Position numbers and translations under genes: made by a program | In this document: piece by piece, positions 18,993 through 24,385 of the stretch | Position numbering within the stretch: the first letter of the stretch is position 1 | Layout of the letters: every line of letters starts with the position of its first letter | Notes under the pieces: model-generated | What the model was told of the DNA's origin: nothing | Seen by the model: the letters and a program-made list of their open reading frames with translations, nothing else | Databases searched by the model: none | Origin: a virus | Reading direction: 5' to 3' (one strand) | Length of the DNA: 24,385 bases | IMG/VR virus record: IMGVR_UViG_3300018084_000014 | Coordinates: 1 to 24,385 of that record

Positions 18993-20822
18993 CTAGTGGA
19001 CGCTGAGCCAGTCTTTTCCAACCTTGTATTCTCCTGCAAGTGGACATCTAAGTAAAAGTAATTCGCCGACTCGTCTGATGGACTCAGCTTGACAGCGTCC
19101 AACCACTTCTGCAAGGCTTCGATCACCTCTGACTTCTGTGACGAATTCATCGTGAACGAGATTGACTTGTTTGAATGCGATTTGCTGTGCATTTAATTTC
19201 TTTCTCCATAATAGATTTGCCATCTTCATTACTATAGCTTCTCCAGATTGAAGCATGCCGGCAAACATACCATGCTCCTCTCCATAATATACTTTCCTAC
19301 CATCTAGCCCTGGGAACCATCCTTGTCTAGCATACCCAGGAATAAGTTCCTGGCTGAGGCGTCTAAGCCCTGGATATGTATCTCTATAGAGCTTAAGGGC
19401 GGCGACAGCATCTCGCATACTGCAACCAAAGATCTCACTAACTTTAGCCGCTCCGGCTCCGTTAAAGAAACTAAATATGAATGTCTTATGGTTATCTCTA
19501 TCGCAGCCAAGGTGTCTGAATATATTAGACCCGAGGGTATGTACGTCTGTTCCAAGTTTCTTGTCTCCACTTACAACTGCCTTTGTGAATACTGGATCAT
19601 TGATGTAATGGGCGAAGAGCCTAACATGTGCAGCCTCCTTATCAGTACCTACCAACCAACAATCTTCATCAGCAATCCAGAAGCTACGCATCCTACCCCC
19701 GAGATCAGTAGCCAGTCGCTTAAGGTACTCACCTTTATACTTGATGGACTTTTTTGTTGATACATTGCCCATGTTTGGAGCTTGATGTGACATTCTTCCA
19801 GGCCAGGTACCAATACTATTAAACTTGCCGTGTATTCTCCCTGTATCTTCACGGTAGGAGGCTGCCCATTCCTTTAGGGTACGCACCCTATTTGCTACCA
19901 ACAGCCTTTCCACCAGTAATCTAGCGCCCTGTGGTGCGTCCCCTGGGAGGGTAGCTAGGTTTTCCTCATTTACCTTCCAGCTATCTCCGCCTTTCGTGGG
20001 CACCGTAGGTTTCCAGCCTGCACTATCAAGTCTAGATACGAGCTGTTTAGGGCTTCCAGGGTTGAAATCCTGTTGTTCGACAAGGACAAATGTACACCCA
20101 GGATGAAGCTTAGAAAAGTCAGTCCAATCACGAGGAAGGTTGCTGCGCGAGAGCGTGCCGTGCTTAGTAAGCTTAGGTGTGATCTCTCTGATTGGGACAA
20201 TTTTAGGCGGGAATGCTTTTTGGATTTCTTTATCCAGCACTTCAAGTCTGGATCGTAACTCCAATGATAACTTATCTGCTTGTTTTTTATCATACTTAAA
20301 TCCATTCAGATGCATATCTAAACAAACCCAGGCAAACTTAAGTTCTGTCTCTACTGCCTGGTGATACTCTGGTGCGTCTAGGAACTCTGCTAGGTAGTTG
20401 TAGAGGAGTTCATTTATCTCTACATCTCTGATGCAATACTCCAGCATCTGAGTAGTGTATACTTGGAAGTCTGGGGATGGGTACTTAGGGAGGTCGAAGC
20501 GAGTACCCCACGCTTCTAATGAGTGTCCTTCACCATCTGAGATCCTGTAATTCAGGAGATGGGACAGGACTAATGTATCTATTACTTTGGTAGGATCAAT
20601 GCTTCCCGGACAAAATCGTTCAAGTACAAGGTAGTCATAGTGAATAAAGTTGTGGCCAATAAAAGAATCAGCATCGGCAGCCAGGGTTCTAAATTCATCC
20701 AGCTGGTTTTCTTCATAGACATATATAACTCCAGTATCTATATCCTTGGCTACTATACACCAGACATGCTTAATCTTATCTATGTCTAGTGCATCAGTCT
20801 CAACATCTATAACCAATCTCAT
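18993..20822 (-). CDS. Family-A DNA polymerase with 3'-5' exonuclease (T7 gp5-like)
   Basis: A 609-residue replicative polymerase. The proofreading domain has D6/E8 (VIDVETDALD), D63 (HNFIHYD) and Y129-x3-D133 (YCIRD). The polymerase domain has TWPGRMSHQAPN (339-350), motif A at D394 (GTDKEAAHVRLFAHY), motif B with R442, K446, F450 (RDNHKTFIFSFFNGAG) and motif C H557-D558-E559. Phe450 aligns with E. coli Pol I position 762, where Phe or Tyr is typical of lytic phages. Motif A lacks the usual Glu (E. coli E710, T7 E480): His399 is there. Motif B lacks the partner Tyr (E. coli Y766, T7 Y530): Asn454 is there. T7 gp5 is longer (704), so the thioredoxin-binding insert is probably absent. The ribosome site is weak. 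Confidence 0.93.
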   Translation of the reverse strand: MRLVIDVETDALDIDKIKHVWCIVAKDIDTGVIYVYEENQLDEFRTLAADADSFIGHNFIHYDYLVLERFCPGSIDPTKVIDTLVLSHLLNYRISDGEGHSLEAWGTRFDLPKYPSPDFQVYTTQMLEYCIRDVEINELLYNYLAEFLDAPEYHQAVETELKFAWVCLDMHLNGFKYDKKQADKLSLELRSRLEVLDKEIQKAFPPKIVPIREITPKLTKHGTLSRSNLPRDWTDFSKLHPGCTFVLVEQQDFNPGSPKQLVSRLDSAGWKPTVPTKGGDSWKVNEENLATLPGDAPQGARLLVERLLVANRVRTLKEWAASYREDTGRIHGKFNSIGTWPGRMSHQAPNMGNVSTKKSIKYKGEYLKRLATDLGGRMRSFWIADEDCWLVGTDKEAAHVRLFAHYINDPVFTKAVVSGDKKLGTDVHTLGSNIFRHLGCDRDNHKTFIFSFFNGAGAAKVSEIFGCSMRDAVAALKLYRDTYPGLRRLSQELIPGYARQGWFPGLDGRKVYYGEEHGMFAGMLQSGEAIVMKMANLLWRKKLNAQQIAFKQVNLVHDEFVTEVRGDRSLAEVVGRCQAESIRRVGELLLLRCPLAGEYKVGKDWLSVH

Positions 20823-20837
20823 TAATTACTTATACCA

Positions 20838-21470
20838 CTAAGAAAGACGCCAGTCAATAGGTTCTACATTTATTTTCTTTAATTCTTCGTTTGCTTTCGT
20901 GAATATCTTCGACCCGTAGAAGTACTTAGAAGATAGGGATGAGGGATGAGCGGCTTCAACAACCGGACATGGATCACATGCTGCTTGGTACTCCTGCGCT
21001 TTCTTACCCAGAAGGATAAAGACCACCTTGCCCGTAGCAGCAAGCTTCTTACAGATTTCATACGTCAACATCTCCCAGCCAATACCCTTGTGAGATAGTG
21101 TCTTACCTTCTTCAACCGTGAGGATAGTGTTGAGGAGGAGGACTCCCCTTTCAGCCCAGACTCGTAGGTCTCCGTTACGTGGTTCAGGGTAGCCGAGATC
21201 AGTTTGATACTCCTTGAATAGATTACGGAGACTACCCGGTATGGACTTATTGTGCGGGAGTACAGAGAACGCGAGGCCATGTGCCATGCCTTTCGTATGA
21301 TACGGATCTTGTCCTAGCAAGACTACTTTAACCTTGTCGAAAGGGGTCAACTCAAGAGCCTTGTACCAGTCTTCTTTTCTAGGTAGATAGTTAGTATCTG
21401 TCTTAAGAAATGATTCTACTAGAGATTGTCTATGCTTCCAGAACTTAAGATGCTTCCAGCTATCTATCAT
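20838..21470 (-). CDS. ung: Uracil-DNA glycosylase, family 1 (Ung)
   Basis: A 210-residue enzyme that removes uracil from DNA. Signature motifs: the water-activating loop GQDPYH (Asp55), AHGLAFSV, the LLLNTILTV segment that forms the uracil pocket, and the minor-groove loop HPSSLS (His175), followed by FYGS and the end EPIDWRL. In most family members the loop reads HPSPLS; here Pro is Ser. The ATG at 21470 is preferred over an upstream in-frame start at 21533, since Ung proteins begin near this point and the extra 21 residues would overlap the preceding gene further. Placed just before the polymerase, it would keep uracil out of newly made phage DNA. Confidence 0.92.
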   Translation of the reverse strand: MIDSWKHLKFWKHRQSLVESFLKTDTNYLPRKEDWYKALELTPFDKVKVVLLGQDPYHTKGMAHGLAFSVLPHNKSIPGSLRNLFKEYQTDLGYPEPRNGDLRVWAERGVLLLNTILTVEEGKTLSHKGIGWEMLTYEICKKLAATGKVVFILLGKKAQEYQAACDPCPVVEAAHPSSLSSKYFYGSKIFTKANEELKKINVEPIDWRLS

Positions 21471-21753
21471 AGGGATATCTTTTACAAGTGCAAGACTGAT
21501 ACTCTTTATGTGTCTTATCAATCCAAAGACCATCCCAATCAGGACAATAGTGTCCGTCCAACATAGGATTAACGTTTAAATTGCCCTGGAGGGGTGCTGG
21601 AGGGCTTTCCAAGGGGACCCCTAGGGGGTAGTACCAGGAATTGTCCTTAGCCTCTGGCGGTGCCTCTGAGGCCCTTATAGGGCAATCATGACAAAGACCG
21701 TCATTTAATCTATCCTTCATACAATGAGGCTCAGAGCACTTGTTCACTGACAT
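21460..21753 (-). CDS. Small Cys-rich protein, possible zinc-binding
   Basis: A 97-residue protein with C6-x4-C11-x9-C21-x2-C24 near the N-terminus (KCSEPHCMKDRLNDGLCHDC), a Pro/Gly-rich middle, and C70, C88, C90 near the end (QSCTCKRYPYDR). A metal-binding finger is likely. The start has GAGGGGA about 6 bases upstream; it overlaps the primase-helicase by 23 bases and the glycosylase by 11. Its DNA is GC-rich at 21581-21640 and contains the palindrome CCCCTAGGGG (21618-21627). Function is unknown; a replisome accessory role is suggested only by position. Confidence 0.65.
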   Translation of the reverse strand: MSVNKCSEPHCMKDRLNDGLCHDCPIRASEAPPEAKDNSWYYPLGVPLESPPAPLQGNLNVNPMLDGHYCPDWDGLWIDKTHKEYQSCTCKRYPYDR

Positions 21754-23398
21754 CAGGTGTCCCCTCTATCTCTGTGATACGGAAGGTTTTAGGGTCAAAG
21801 CTAAGTGAGCCAGCCGGTCCAGTAATACTTGCAAATCTATTACCACGGCACGTAAGGCGCGTAGTGTTTCTTGCTCCGGTATCTGCGGACTCGATGTCCC
21901 TATCAAGATGGATGAGCAGATCCGCAACTTTACCGATATTTCTGCTGCCTCTTGTTTGACCCTGGTCATTGACGTGGGAGACGAGGAACATGCAGAAGTC
22001 AAGCTCTCTGGTGAGCATGGCAAGTCTTGTTGAGATGTAGTCAAGCCGCTTCCTTTCGTCCTCTTCCTCGAAGCCAGTGACAAGCATAGTGATGTGGTCA
22101 AGGAATACAAACTTACAATGGGCCACCTTCACCATGTATCTTATGGCATCAAGAATATTGCGAGGGTCGTCACTCCCAAAGTGAGTATAGAAATGCACAC
22201 GACCATCACGTTTAGTAAGAGATTTGTACGCCAAGATTTGTTCATCGGCTGAAGTGCCGTTATCAGGCAGGTGAGCTGGAACACCAAGCTCGTAACCAAT
22301 AAGGCCTTGAACACTTCTACGTTCCTTCTCTTCTAGGTGGATAATGCCAATGTTTTCATCAGTGCATTTGAGTAGATGGTACTCAATAGCACGTAGTACT
22401 TCTGTCTTCCCAACTTTTTCCAAAGCGGTAAAGAGCACCAGTTCCCCGGTCCGTATGCCATAGGACATAGACTCGAGTGTTTGAAAAGGGTATGACGCAA
22501 TGGAGTGCTTATCCTCACTGCGGAGTATACCTTCAATCGCTTCATAGGATGATACTATCCCCTTCGGCTCATATCTCTTAGCATTATACCAAATTCTTTT
22601 GAGAGCCTCTGCCCCGTCTGCTTGAAGAAGCTCGTTAGCATCTTTGTACTTGTCGATCTTGACGTGGTAGACCTTGTTGACATCGAAGAGGGCTGCCACG
22701 TCTCTAGCGGCTTCCATCCCTGCTCTGTCATTGTCAAAGCATAGGTATATTGCTTCGAAAGAGTTGAGATAGTGATAAGCCTTTTCACATTCACTCCGGG
22801 CCGAAGGAGCACTTCTAACCGAGACGGCGGGGTATCTCCGCCCCAAGGCTTCGTAGACGGACATAGCATCGAAGGCTCCTTCGGTTATGGTGATAGCTCT
22901 AGAACTACCAGAGTTAAAAGACTCTTGACCAAATAGTAGAACGTTGCTTCCGTCACCAACAGTGCGAAAAGAACGATCACTGTATCCACGAAGAGTCGTA
23001 TAAGATCCATAGGGAAGTCCTATCTCCTGTGGTTTACCGGCTCCATCTACCTTGGTTAGCACCTTGTAGTGCTCCATGGTATACCTGGAAATACCTCTAT
23101 GCTCTAAGTATTGATAACTTTCATTAGCCATTAAAGAATCTCTGTTGTTACTATATAAAGAAAGATCATATGTAGAAGTTCCTAATGTAGTAGTTGCTAA
23201 CCCTTCTATATCTATACTATATAAAGAAAGACTATATGTATCTATATAAAGAGAGCACGCGAAGCAATACGCATGCCCGTCAGAATAGATAGCTAAGTTA
23301 TCCCTACCCCTGTCCAGACACTTGGGGCACTGTATCTTCTTCAGACACTTGGTCTTTATCGTAGCCCTTATAGGGGCCTCCATAGATGCATGTAGCAT
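21731..23398 (-). CDS. Primase-helicase (T7 gp4-like)
   Basis: A 555-residue bifunctional enzyme. The N-terminal zinc ribbon has C24/C27 and C45/C48 (CPKC...SDGHAYCFAC), nearly the T7 pattern. A repetitive Ser/Leu/Tyr linker (about 49-88) follows, then the TOPRIM primase domain with E173 (ITITEGAFDAMS) and D222/D224 (CFDNDRAG). The helicase has a relaxed Walker A (ALEKVGKT, residues 325-332), HLEEKERRS, Walker B FVFLDH (430-435), the H-motif LVSHVN, RGSRNIGKVAD, and a terminal CRGNRF region with the arginine finger. It unwinds DNA 5'-3' as a ring and makes primers for the polymerase two genes downstream. ATG 23398 (GGAAG upstream) is preferred to TTG 23404; the first 95 bases overlap the upstream gene. 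Confidence 0.92.
   Translation of the reverse strand: MLHASMEAPIRATIKTKCLKKIQCPKCLDRGRDNLAIYSDGHAYCFACSLYIDTYSLSLYSIDIEGLATTTLGTSTYDLSLYSNNRDSLMANESYQYLEHRGISRYTMEHYKVLTKVDGAGKPQEIGLPYGSYTTLRGYSDRSFRTVGDGSNVLLFGQESFNSGSSRAITITEGAFDAMSVYEALGRRYPAVSVRSAPSARSECEKAYHYLNSFEAIYLCFDNDRAGMEAARDVAALFDVNKVYHVKIDKYKDANELLQADGAEALKRIWYNAKRYEPKGIVSSYEAIEGILRSEDKHSIASYPFQTLESMSYGIRTGELVLFTALEKVGKTEVLRAIEYHLLKCTDENIGIIHLEEKERRSVQGLIGYELGVPAHLPDNGTSADEQILAYKSLTKRDGRVHFYTHFGSDDPRNILDAIRYMVKVAHCKFVFLDHITMLVTGFEEEDERKRLDYISTRLAMLTRELDFCMFLVSHVNDQGQTRGSRNIGKVADLLIHLDRDIESADTGARNTTRLTCRGNRFASITGPAGSLSFDPKTFRITEIEGTPDVSEQVL
23149..23255 (-). repeat. Near-identical 26-bp AT-rich repeats, plus a partial third, in the primase linker
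   Basis: Copies at 23149-23174 and 23215-23240 (plus strand TACTATATAAAGAAAGA, then 2 differing bases, then ATATGTA) match at 24 of 26 positions, 66 bases apart. A partial copy (CTATATAAAG) starts at 23242. The first two are in the same codon frame (TYDLSLYS, TYSLSLYS) but the third is in another, which points to a DNA-level signal as well as a protein repeat. A looser relative, CTATATAAATCAATATG, lies at 23567-23583. Confidence 0.6.
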
Positions 23399-23513
23399 TA
23401 CCAATATACTTCCAACATTGCTTACAGACAGAGCACTTAGTTCTAATCATAATTCTTTGTTCGTGCTTGTCGTACTTAGTCTCTAGTCCCTTAGGAACCT
23501 GCACTTGGCTCAT
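23304..23513 (-). CDS. Small Cys-rich protein overlapping the primase start
   Basis: A 69-residue protein with C27-x2-C30-x2-C33-x8-C42 (RTKCSVCKQCWKYIGNATC), a likely metal-binding finger, and an acidic C-terminus. The start at 23513 has a strong AGGAG 6-7 bases upstream. Its 3' half overlaps the primase-helicase start by 95 bases in another frame, so its translation probably governs access to the primase start. The KTKC-type sequence resembles the primase N-terminus (IKTKCLKKIQCPKC), though this may be chance. Function is unknown. Confidence 0.65.
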   Translation of the reverse strand: MSQVQVPKGLETKYDKHEQRIMIRTKCSVCKQCWKYIGNATCIYGGPYKGYDKDQVSEEDTVPQVSGQG

Positions 23514-23752: not shown

Positions 23753-24385
23753 TCAAAAAGTCAAGCTGATTCCGTACTTCTCTTGTATCATTTTCTTAAG
23801 ACCATCAGCATATCCTTGAACGGTCAATGTACCTCCTATTGATGGAGCAGTATTAGTCTCCAGCACCCAGGCCTTAGTTCCGTCCCAAAGAACATCTACT
23901 CCAGCGAAGTCTAGACCTACTGCTTTTGTCGCCTTAAGAGCTTGATCGACTACGTCGTTATGATAGATTGTAACGTTCTTAAAGTCTCCTACAACAGTAG
24001 GATCTCCGACACTAGTTATCTTCCGTCGTACATTAACAGCCTTACCGTCTACGACGTGGACCCTGTACTCCTTCGTAAAGGGTACATATTGGGTATAAAG
24101 GGGGCTATGCCCTAGGAGTGTCAAATTGGCACCGCCAGCGGCTCCCGTGAGCCAGGCTACCATGGTACTCCAAAACCCAGGATCGGTCTGTACGGTCAAA
24201 TTTGGGGCCGTAGCTTCGATTATACGGATACCACTGCCCTCCGACCCTGTAGCGGTGTCTCTACAGACCACTTTATGACCAATACCTAGCCACTTAAGGG
24301 CCTCTAGGCGGTTAGTGGTGTAGGGAACATGCCTGCACTTACCATCCATAGCCTGGAAGGCTGCTATCTTGTTAACAGAAATCCT
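23753..24385 (-). CDS. ATP-grasp ligase, RimK-like (5' end outside window)
   Basis: The frame stays open to the right edge, where 12 codons (RISVNKIAAFQA) precede the internal ATG at 24349. This 'NK..A...M' helix with the P-Y-T-T that follows is the normal N-terminal part of ATP-grasp folds, so the true start lies outside. Counting from the internal Met: E94 in EYRVHVVDGKAVNVRRK, D152 (AGVDVLWDG), and E164/N166 (VLETNTAPSIGG) are the ATP and metal ligands. These enzymes join a carboxylate to an amine via an acyl phosphate, often adding residues to proteins or peptides. The substrate is unknown. Residues 52-82 seem an extra, GC-rich Gly/Ala/Trp segment before the EYR motif. It may tag a phage or host protein. 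Confidence 0.8.
   Translation of the reverse strand, partial: RISVNKIAAFQAMDGKCRHVPYTTNRLEALKWLGIGHKVVCRDTATGSEGSGIRIIEATAPNLTVQTDPGFWSTMVAWLTGAAGGANLTLLGHSPLYTQYVPFTKEYRVHVVDGKAVNVRRKITSVGDPTVVGDFKNVTIYHNDVVDQALKATKAVGLDFAGVDVLWDGTKAWVLETNTAPSIGGTLTVQGYADGLKKMIQEKYGISLTF

Follow-up and report, generated by a model that had tools for sequence, protein, structure and literature searches.

How does a family-A DNA polymerase build its nucleotide pocket when two residues regarded as universal are both replaced? In this family, a hydrogen bond between Tyr766 and Glu710 (E. coli numbering) forms the pocket (PMC4882331; PMC12756729). Specifically, in the closed complex the motif A Glu bonds the O-helix Tyr, backs the pocket and positions the nucleotide (PMC12756729; PMC4256020), and E710 sterically blocks rNTPs (PMC9324360). 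Conservation throughout family A has been stated for E710 and Y766 (PMC4882331) and for the Tyr (PMC12220841), and mutants at these positions are textbook mutators and rNTP-gate mutants: E710A and Y766A are mutators (PMC4882331), N845A lowers selectivity (PMC3347538), and changes at I709, E710 and N845 lower the fidelity of E. coli Pol I (PMC7708058). The initial annotation of a 24,385-base viral contig, hereafter the window (the whole stretch of DNA analysed), proposed that its polymerase has His for the Glu and Asn for the Tyr. The present data bear out both replacements and place them in a larger set of pocket positions.

An intact T7-type polymerase with both residues replaced

The gene lies on the minus strand, as the sole long open reading frame (ORF) at its coordinates (Table 1), and encodes an intact family-A DNA polymerase of the T7 fold. 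It matches PF00476 DNA_pol_A (E 1.8e-33; 116.5 bits, above the curated cut-off of 34.3) and PHROG 17 (E 4.9e-106), and its AlphaFold2 model is confident (pLDDT 91.1, pTM 0.86). A Foldseek search with this model recovers the T7/Klenow fold, with T7 DNA polymerase at the top (E 1.4e-35) and Klenow at 4.7e-24, and T7 DNA polymerase is also the closest solved relative by sequence (HMMER). Some 95 residues fewer than in T7 gp5 make up the protein, and its thumb segment is also shorter in the HMMER alignment; the thumb is where T7-type polymerases carry the loop for host thioredoxin, their processivity factor. Codon changes relative to the polymerase of contig L001 are more often synonymous (141) than non-synonymous (76).

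The motifs quoted in the initial annotation, LVGTDKEAAHVR and RDNHKTFIFSFFNGAG, are exact; motif A reads LVGTDKEAAHVRLFAH and motif B RDNHKTFIFSFFNGAG. The residues were placed by HMMER against T7, by a 110-sequence MAFFT alignment including T7, and by alignment with E. coli Pol I (from MG1655). All three concur that H399 corresponds to T7 E480/E. coli E710 and N454 to T7 Y530/E. coli Y766, which rules out alignment error as the source of the pair, and all are anchored unambiguously by D394 (D475/D705), R442 (R518/R754), K446 (K522/K758) and D558-E559 (D654-E655/D882-E883). The polymerase thus carries the family-A catalytic residues D394, D558 and E559 and the triphosphate-binding O-helix residues R442 and K446, which are invariant in the alignments. 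Also kept are Q525 (T7 Q615, E. coli Q849), R343 (E. coli R668), an Arg within the conserved GR..(H/S)..PN stretch, and the exonuclease set D6, E8, D63, Y129 and D133 (T7 D5, E7, D65, Y170 and D174). The catalytic and proofreading residues are thus retained, and the enzyme differs in the pocket. Three further residues were absent from the initial annotation: Phe450, Ala521 (against the near-invariant T7 N611) and Glu528 (against T7 G618). Position 450 is Tyr in most relatives and Phe, the state of E. coli F762, in 6/6 His/Asn enzymes.

The surrounding genes form a T7-like replication module on one strand, comprising primase-helicase, uracil-DNA glycosylase (UDG), polymerase, a PD-(D/E)XK nuclease candidate and endonuclease I, and megablast of the record against phage isolates found no near relative. 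UDG matches also occur in the contigs of L001, L101 and L019 and are absent from those of L002 and L106, which may be fragments. A replication or processivity role of the UDG, as for poxvirus D4, is conceivable. Contig L117 has a 130-aa ORF between primase-helicase and polymerase with weak likeness to the C-terminal half of UDG (E 0.002); it lacks the catalytic motifs and is possibly a degenerate glycosylase. The window and L117 each have a gene for a RimK/R2K-type ATP-grasp ligase beside the replication genes. The L101 and L019 contigs encode a ribonucleotide reductase large chain; no such gene is found in the window or in the L001 and L002 contigs, which may be incomplete.

Table 1. Positions of the polymerase, its pocket and catalytic residues, and associated features. 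Positions refer to the window unless another contig is named.
Feature	Position	Strand	Correspondence or basis
Family-A DNA polymerase with 3'-5' exonuclease domain, 609 aa	18993..20822	-	PF00476, PHROG 17, AF2, fold match
Catalytic Asp394, kept	19641..19643	-	T7 D475 / E. coli D705
Ala398	19629..19631	-	T7 L479 / E. coli I709
His399, codon CAT	19626..19628	-	T7 E480 / E. coli E710
Phe450	19473..19475	-	T7 Y526 / E. coli F762
Asn454, codon AAC	19461..19463	-	T7 Y530 / E. coli Y766
Ala521	19260..19262	-	T7 N611 / E. coli N845; coordinates derived from residue number
Glu528	19239..19241	-	T7 G618 / E. coli A852; coordinates derived from residue number
Catalytic Asp558-Glu559, kept	19146..19151	-	T7 D654-E655 / E. 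coli D882-E883
Uracil-DNA glycosylase	20838..21533	-	Directly upstream of polymerase; NCBIfam equivalog 4.3e-65
Primase/DnaB-type helicase, T7 gp4-like	21731..23404	-	Toprim and DnaB_C matches
RimK/R2K-type ATP-grasp ligase	23753-24349	-	
RimK/R2K-type ATP-grasp ligase	L117 1692-2522	+	
130-aa ORF	L117 4494-4886	+	
Motif A insert	L002 1409-1782		L018 ORF 1430-1783, +
Motif A insert	L101 7155-7486		

Distribution of the pair and of further pocket columns

Relatives gathered from IMG/VR contigs and phage isolates gave 146 distinct polymerases; they were picked by similarity to the window polymerase, so the counts describe T7-like polymerases rather than the whole of family A. At positions 399/454 these enzymes have Glu/Tyr (96), Gln/Leu (22), Gln/Phe (21), His/Asn (6) or Gln/Met (1), and a mixed pair, in which Glu stands with a residue other than Tyr or the reverse, occurs in 0/146. 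Glu and Tyr are unchanged in all 96 standard enzymes, including remote ones such as those of ICP1, PAK_P3 and mycobacteriophage Alsfro, so both sites are under strong constraint. As the initial annotation had suggested, Gln/Leu is a lineage trait of related podophages: this class includes Cobavirinae and long-known isolates such as roseophage SIO1, whereas His/Asn comes here from uncultivated contigs only.

The His/Asn pair is rare. It is found in seven contigs, the window included, which rules out a sequencing or assembly error or a lone mutant, and these encode six distinct proteins with pairwise identities of 43-88%. Identity to the window polymerase is 88% for L001, 73% for L002 and 52% for L101 (second exon only for both), 49% for L116 and L117 (two contigs with 99.7% DNA identity) and 45% for L106. 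In independent DNA scans of 2.9 million viral contigs, the search for a motif A His and the search for a motif B Asn each returned contigs of the His/Asn set only and no other polymerase. A scan of one-genome-per-species genome contigs found no relative; four pattern matches there were discarded, as no polymerase is encoded. An apparent Asn399 in L017 was likewise rejected: the BLAST piece had run into an inserted element, and the true exon reads MESAHLR. No description of the pair was found in the open-access literature searched, and an earlier account may exist elsewhere.

Further columns of the same pocket change with the pair, in keeping with the rebuilt pocket that the initial annotation had suggested. 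The T7 N611 column (position 521) is Asn in 95/96 Glu/Tyr enzymes (Ser in one) and Ala, Ser, Val, Gly or Cys in 50/50 alternatives, and the T7 G618 column (position 528) is Gly, Ala or Ser in 96/96 Glu/Tyr enzymes and Glu in 50/50 alternatives and 0/96 standard ones. As both columns follow the same split, motif A loses a Glu while helix Q gains one. Position 398 is almost always Leu in the Glu/Tyr class, Ile with Gln/Leu, mostly Cys (in some Asn) with Gln/Phe, and Ala with His/Asn. Taken jointly, positions 398/399/454/521/528 read LEYNG in 93 of the 146 enzymes and a near-standard state in 3; the alternatives are CQFVE (19), IQLSE (11), IQLAE (11) and AHNAE (5), along with four more single variants, AHNGE among them. 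By mutual information, the columns most strongly associated with 399 are 454 (1.000 of its entropy), 398 (0.963), 521 (0.880) and 528 (0.836). Shared ancestry inflates these values, yet the top four of about 600 columns still all fall within three elements of the pocket, namely motif A, the O helix and helix Q. The joint distribution supports a coupling of the pocket sites.

The two residues do change together, but the label "sugar-gate pair" used in the initial annotation is too narrow, since the pair belongs to a five-position set (E. coli I709, E710, Y766, N845 and A852). Apart from A852, every position in this set is known to matter for fidelity in E. coli, and an effect on base-pair checking is therefore no less likely than one on sugar choice.

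Two members of the His/Asn set, L002 and L101, have an insert of some 330-370 bases within the polymerase gene, immediately ahead of the motif A catalytic Asp; it is absent from the window, L001, L106 and L116. The insert is open in the polymerase frame and holds an Endonuclease VII-like ORF in a different frame (L002 ORF against Endonuclease_7, 7.8e-19); Rfam gave no group I intron match on the L002 insert. A similar out-of-frame homing element, termed "hidden HNH", has been described in a phage methylase (PMC11855218). Separately, the polymerase translations of L148, L154 and L161 contain stops inside the matched span, which suggests introns, inserts or split genes.

Evolutionary history and competing readings

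When columns 399, 450 and 454 were left out, a maximum-likelihood tree placed the His/Asn enzymes in one clade (SH-aLRT 98, and 97-98 with the 57-row tree included), which adjoins L019 (Gln/Met) and L020 (Gln/Leu) and is nested in the Gln/Leu group with the Cobavirinae phages. On this tree, the window polymerase thus falls in the clade holding Cobavirinae (Zobellviridae/Cobavirinae). A different clade unites the Gln/Phe enzymes, which come from CVT22, Vibrio phage 402E50-1 and many contigs. Position 399 changes three times on the tree, each time together with 454, which has one additional change, Leu to Met; the Gln class arose once or twice, and Gln gave way to His a single time. As the alternatives are confined to few clades, 50 sequences do not equal 50 events. 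In AU tests that excluded seven pocket columns, a single origin of all alternatives was rejected with 54 rows (p 0.0004) and was not rejected with 57 rows (p 0.25), in which more Gln/Phe members broke the long branch. Because the result shifts with denser sampling, convergence is not claimed.

The available data best support a model in which the pocket is held together by different contacts. In the standard pocket, T7 E480 is hydrogen-bonded to T7 Y530, with T7 N611 of helix Q beside the minor groove. Which residues are present, how they co-occur, the clade and the undamaged catalytic core are observed; the contacts described next and all biochemical consequences are inferred. In the window polymerase, with His for the Glu, Asn for the Tyr and Ala for the helix-Q Asn, His399 (Gln in the sister enzymes) would wall the C2' side of the sugar, and Asn454 (Leu, Phe or Met in the sisters) would fill the space left by the Tyr and may partner His399 in the closed state. 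The new Glu528, two helical turns further along helix Q, may replace the lost carboxylate of motif A or re-tie the palm; alternatively, it may do neither and simply mark the lineage. Since T7 N611, Q615 and G618 are spaced i, i+4 and i+7, they should lie on one face of helix Q, as inferred from helix geometry. Selection of dNTPs would be preserved, and minor-groove mismatch checking would be expected to change.

Could the changes instead make nucleotide selection laxer, so that the lineage tolerates more ribonucleotide incorporation or misincorporation now that the Glu gate, the Tyr and the minor-groove Asn are lost? The rNTP-blocking, mutator and selectivity phenotypes known for E710, Y766 and N845 fit such a view, as all three positions are altered in the window polymerase and a UDG gene adjoins it. 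We nevertheless consider it unlikely: the replacements are specific rather than random and conserved over 43-88% identity, with the new Glu always gained, the gate position stays polar in every alternative lineage, with a Gln or His that is about as large as the Glu or larger, exonuclease and catalytic residues are retained, and the UDG is missing from the L002 and L106 contigs (possibly fragments).

The main sceptical alternative is neutral lineage drift, in which the pair disappeared in a single founder and the remaining columns reflect that ancient division with no functional coupling. The few independent events would agree with this, as would the larger tree, which is compatible with a single origin of all alternatives, and the several non-pocket columns that also separate the classes, as common ancestry would give. 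Against it stand the strong constraint on Glu and Tyr in the standard enzymes, the absence of any change at 399 without one at 454, the concentration of the four most associated columns in motif A, the O helix and helix Q, and a second joint switch, from Gln/Leu to His/Asn, inside the group; we regard drift as quite improbable. Least plausible is a pocket adapted to phage DNA, or a dNTP pool, that contains a modified base or sugar: family-A polymerases for modified dNTPs do exist (DpoZ, NCBIfam) and the changes face the sugar and the minor groove, but the DpoZ match here is weak, far under its cut-off, no nucleotide-modification gene was recognised among the searched ORFs (24 kb of genome), and ordinary marine podophages (SIO1, CRP-4) belong to the Gln/Leu class.

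The gene probably encodes a working T7-type replicative polymerase whose pocket for the sugar and the nascent base pair follows a second, co-evolved architecture. About 50 related viral enzymes share the same coordinated swap, and so would represent a second natural way to build this pocket. More tentatively, and with slightly more doubt than belief, we suggest that in this pocket the Glu of motif A has been relocated to helix Q (at T7 618), with the Tyr and the minor-groove Asn dispensed with, and that the His/Asn clade has rebuilt this solution once more, so that its sugar selection or fidelity is distinct.

Implications and comparison with known systems

These findings contradict the published view of universal conservation, which does not hold for these phages. 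The window polymerase has H399/N454 in place of Glu710/Tyr766, and the Glu/Tyr pair is missing in 50 of the 146 distinct relatives; what fails is therefore the claim of universality, not membership in family A. Natural polymerases that lack the Glu, Tyr and Asn together show that these contacts are replaceable, and the Glu/Tyr, Gln/Leu, Gln/Phe and His/Asn enzymes form a comparison set ready for testing the roles of the individual contacts. They might also yield polymerases whose substrate range is altered.

Among known systems, T7 DNA polymerase (gp5) is the best match in sequence and fold, with shared catalytic, dNTP-binding (R518, K522) and exonuclease residues, and the window also has primase-helicase and endonuclease I genes near the polymerase. 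The window polymerase differs from it in having His for E480, Asn for Y530, Ala for N611 and Glu for G618, and in length (609 against 704 aa). The closest isolates are Cobavirinae (SIO1, P12053L, CRP-4, CRP-5 and vB_LenP_ICBM2; 33-38% identity), whose polymerases likewise lack Glu710, Tyr766 and Asn845 and have the helix-Q Glu, but carry the Gln/Leu pair and Tyr at E. coli 762. In Veravirus CRP-5 and ICBM2, exonuclease and polymerase are two overlapping ORFs (L004 3986-5882; L015 1492-3403), in contrast to the single gene of the window. Other Zobellviridae, Citrobacter phage CVT22 and Vibrio phage 402E50-1, share Gln for Glu, a small residue at T7 611 and Glu at T7 618, but have Phe for Tyr and Val (once Cys) at 611, and form a separate clade in the best tree.

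Natural active-site variation has been described in virioplankton PolA, and the window polymerase is of the Phe762 kind; those surveys, however, type enzymes by position 762 (Tyr, Phe or Leu762; PMC6302109, PMC13228545), and no mention of variation at 710 or 766 was found in PMC6302109 or PMC9069017. The positions concerned are those of the E. coli Pol I fidelity mutants (I709, E710, Y766 and N845; PMC7708058, PMC4882331). Those mutants are laboratory single substitutions, whereas the window polymerase combines several natural ones that have become fixed, together with a Glu at A852.
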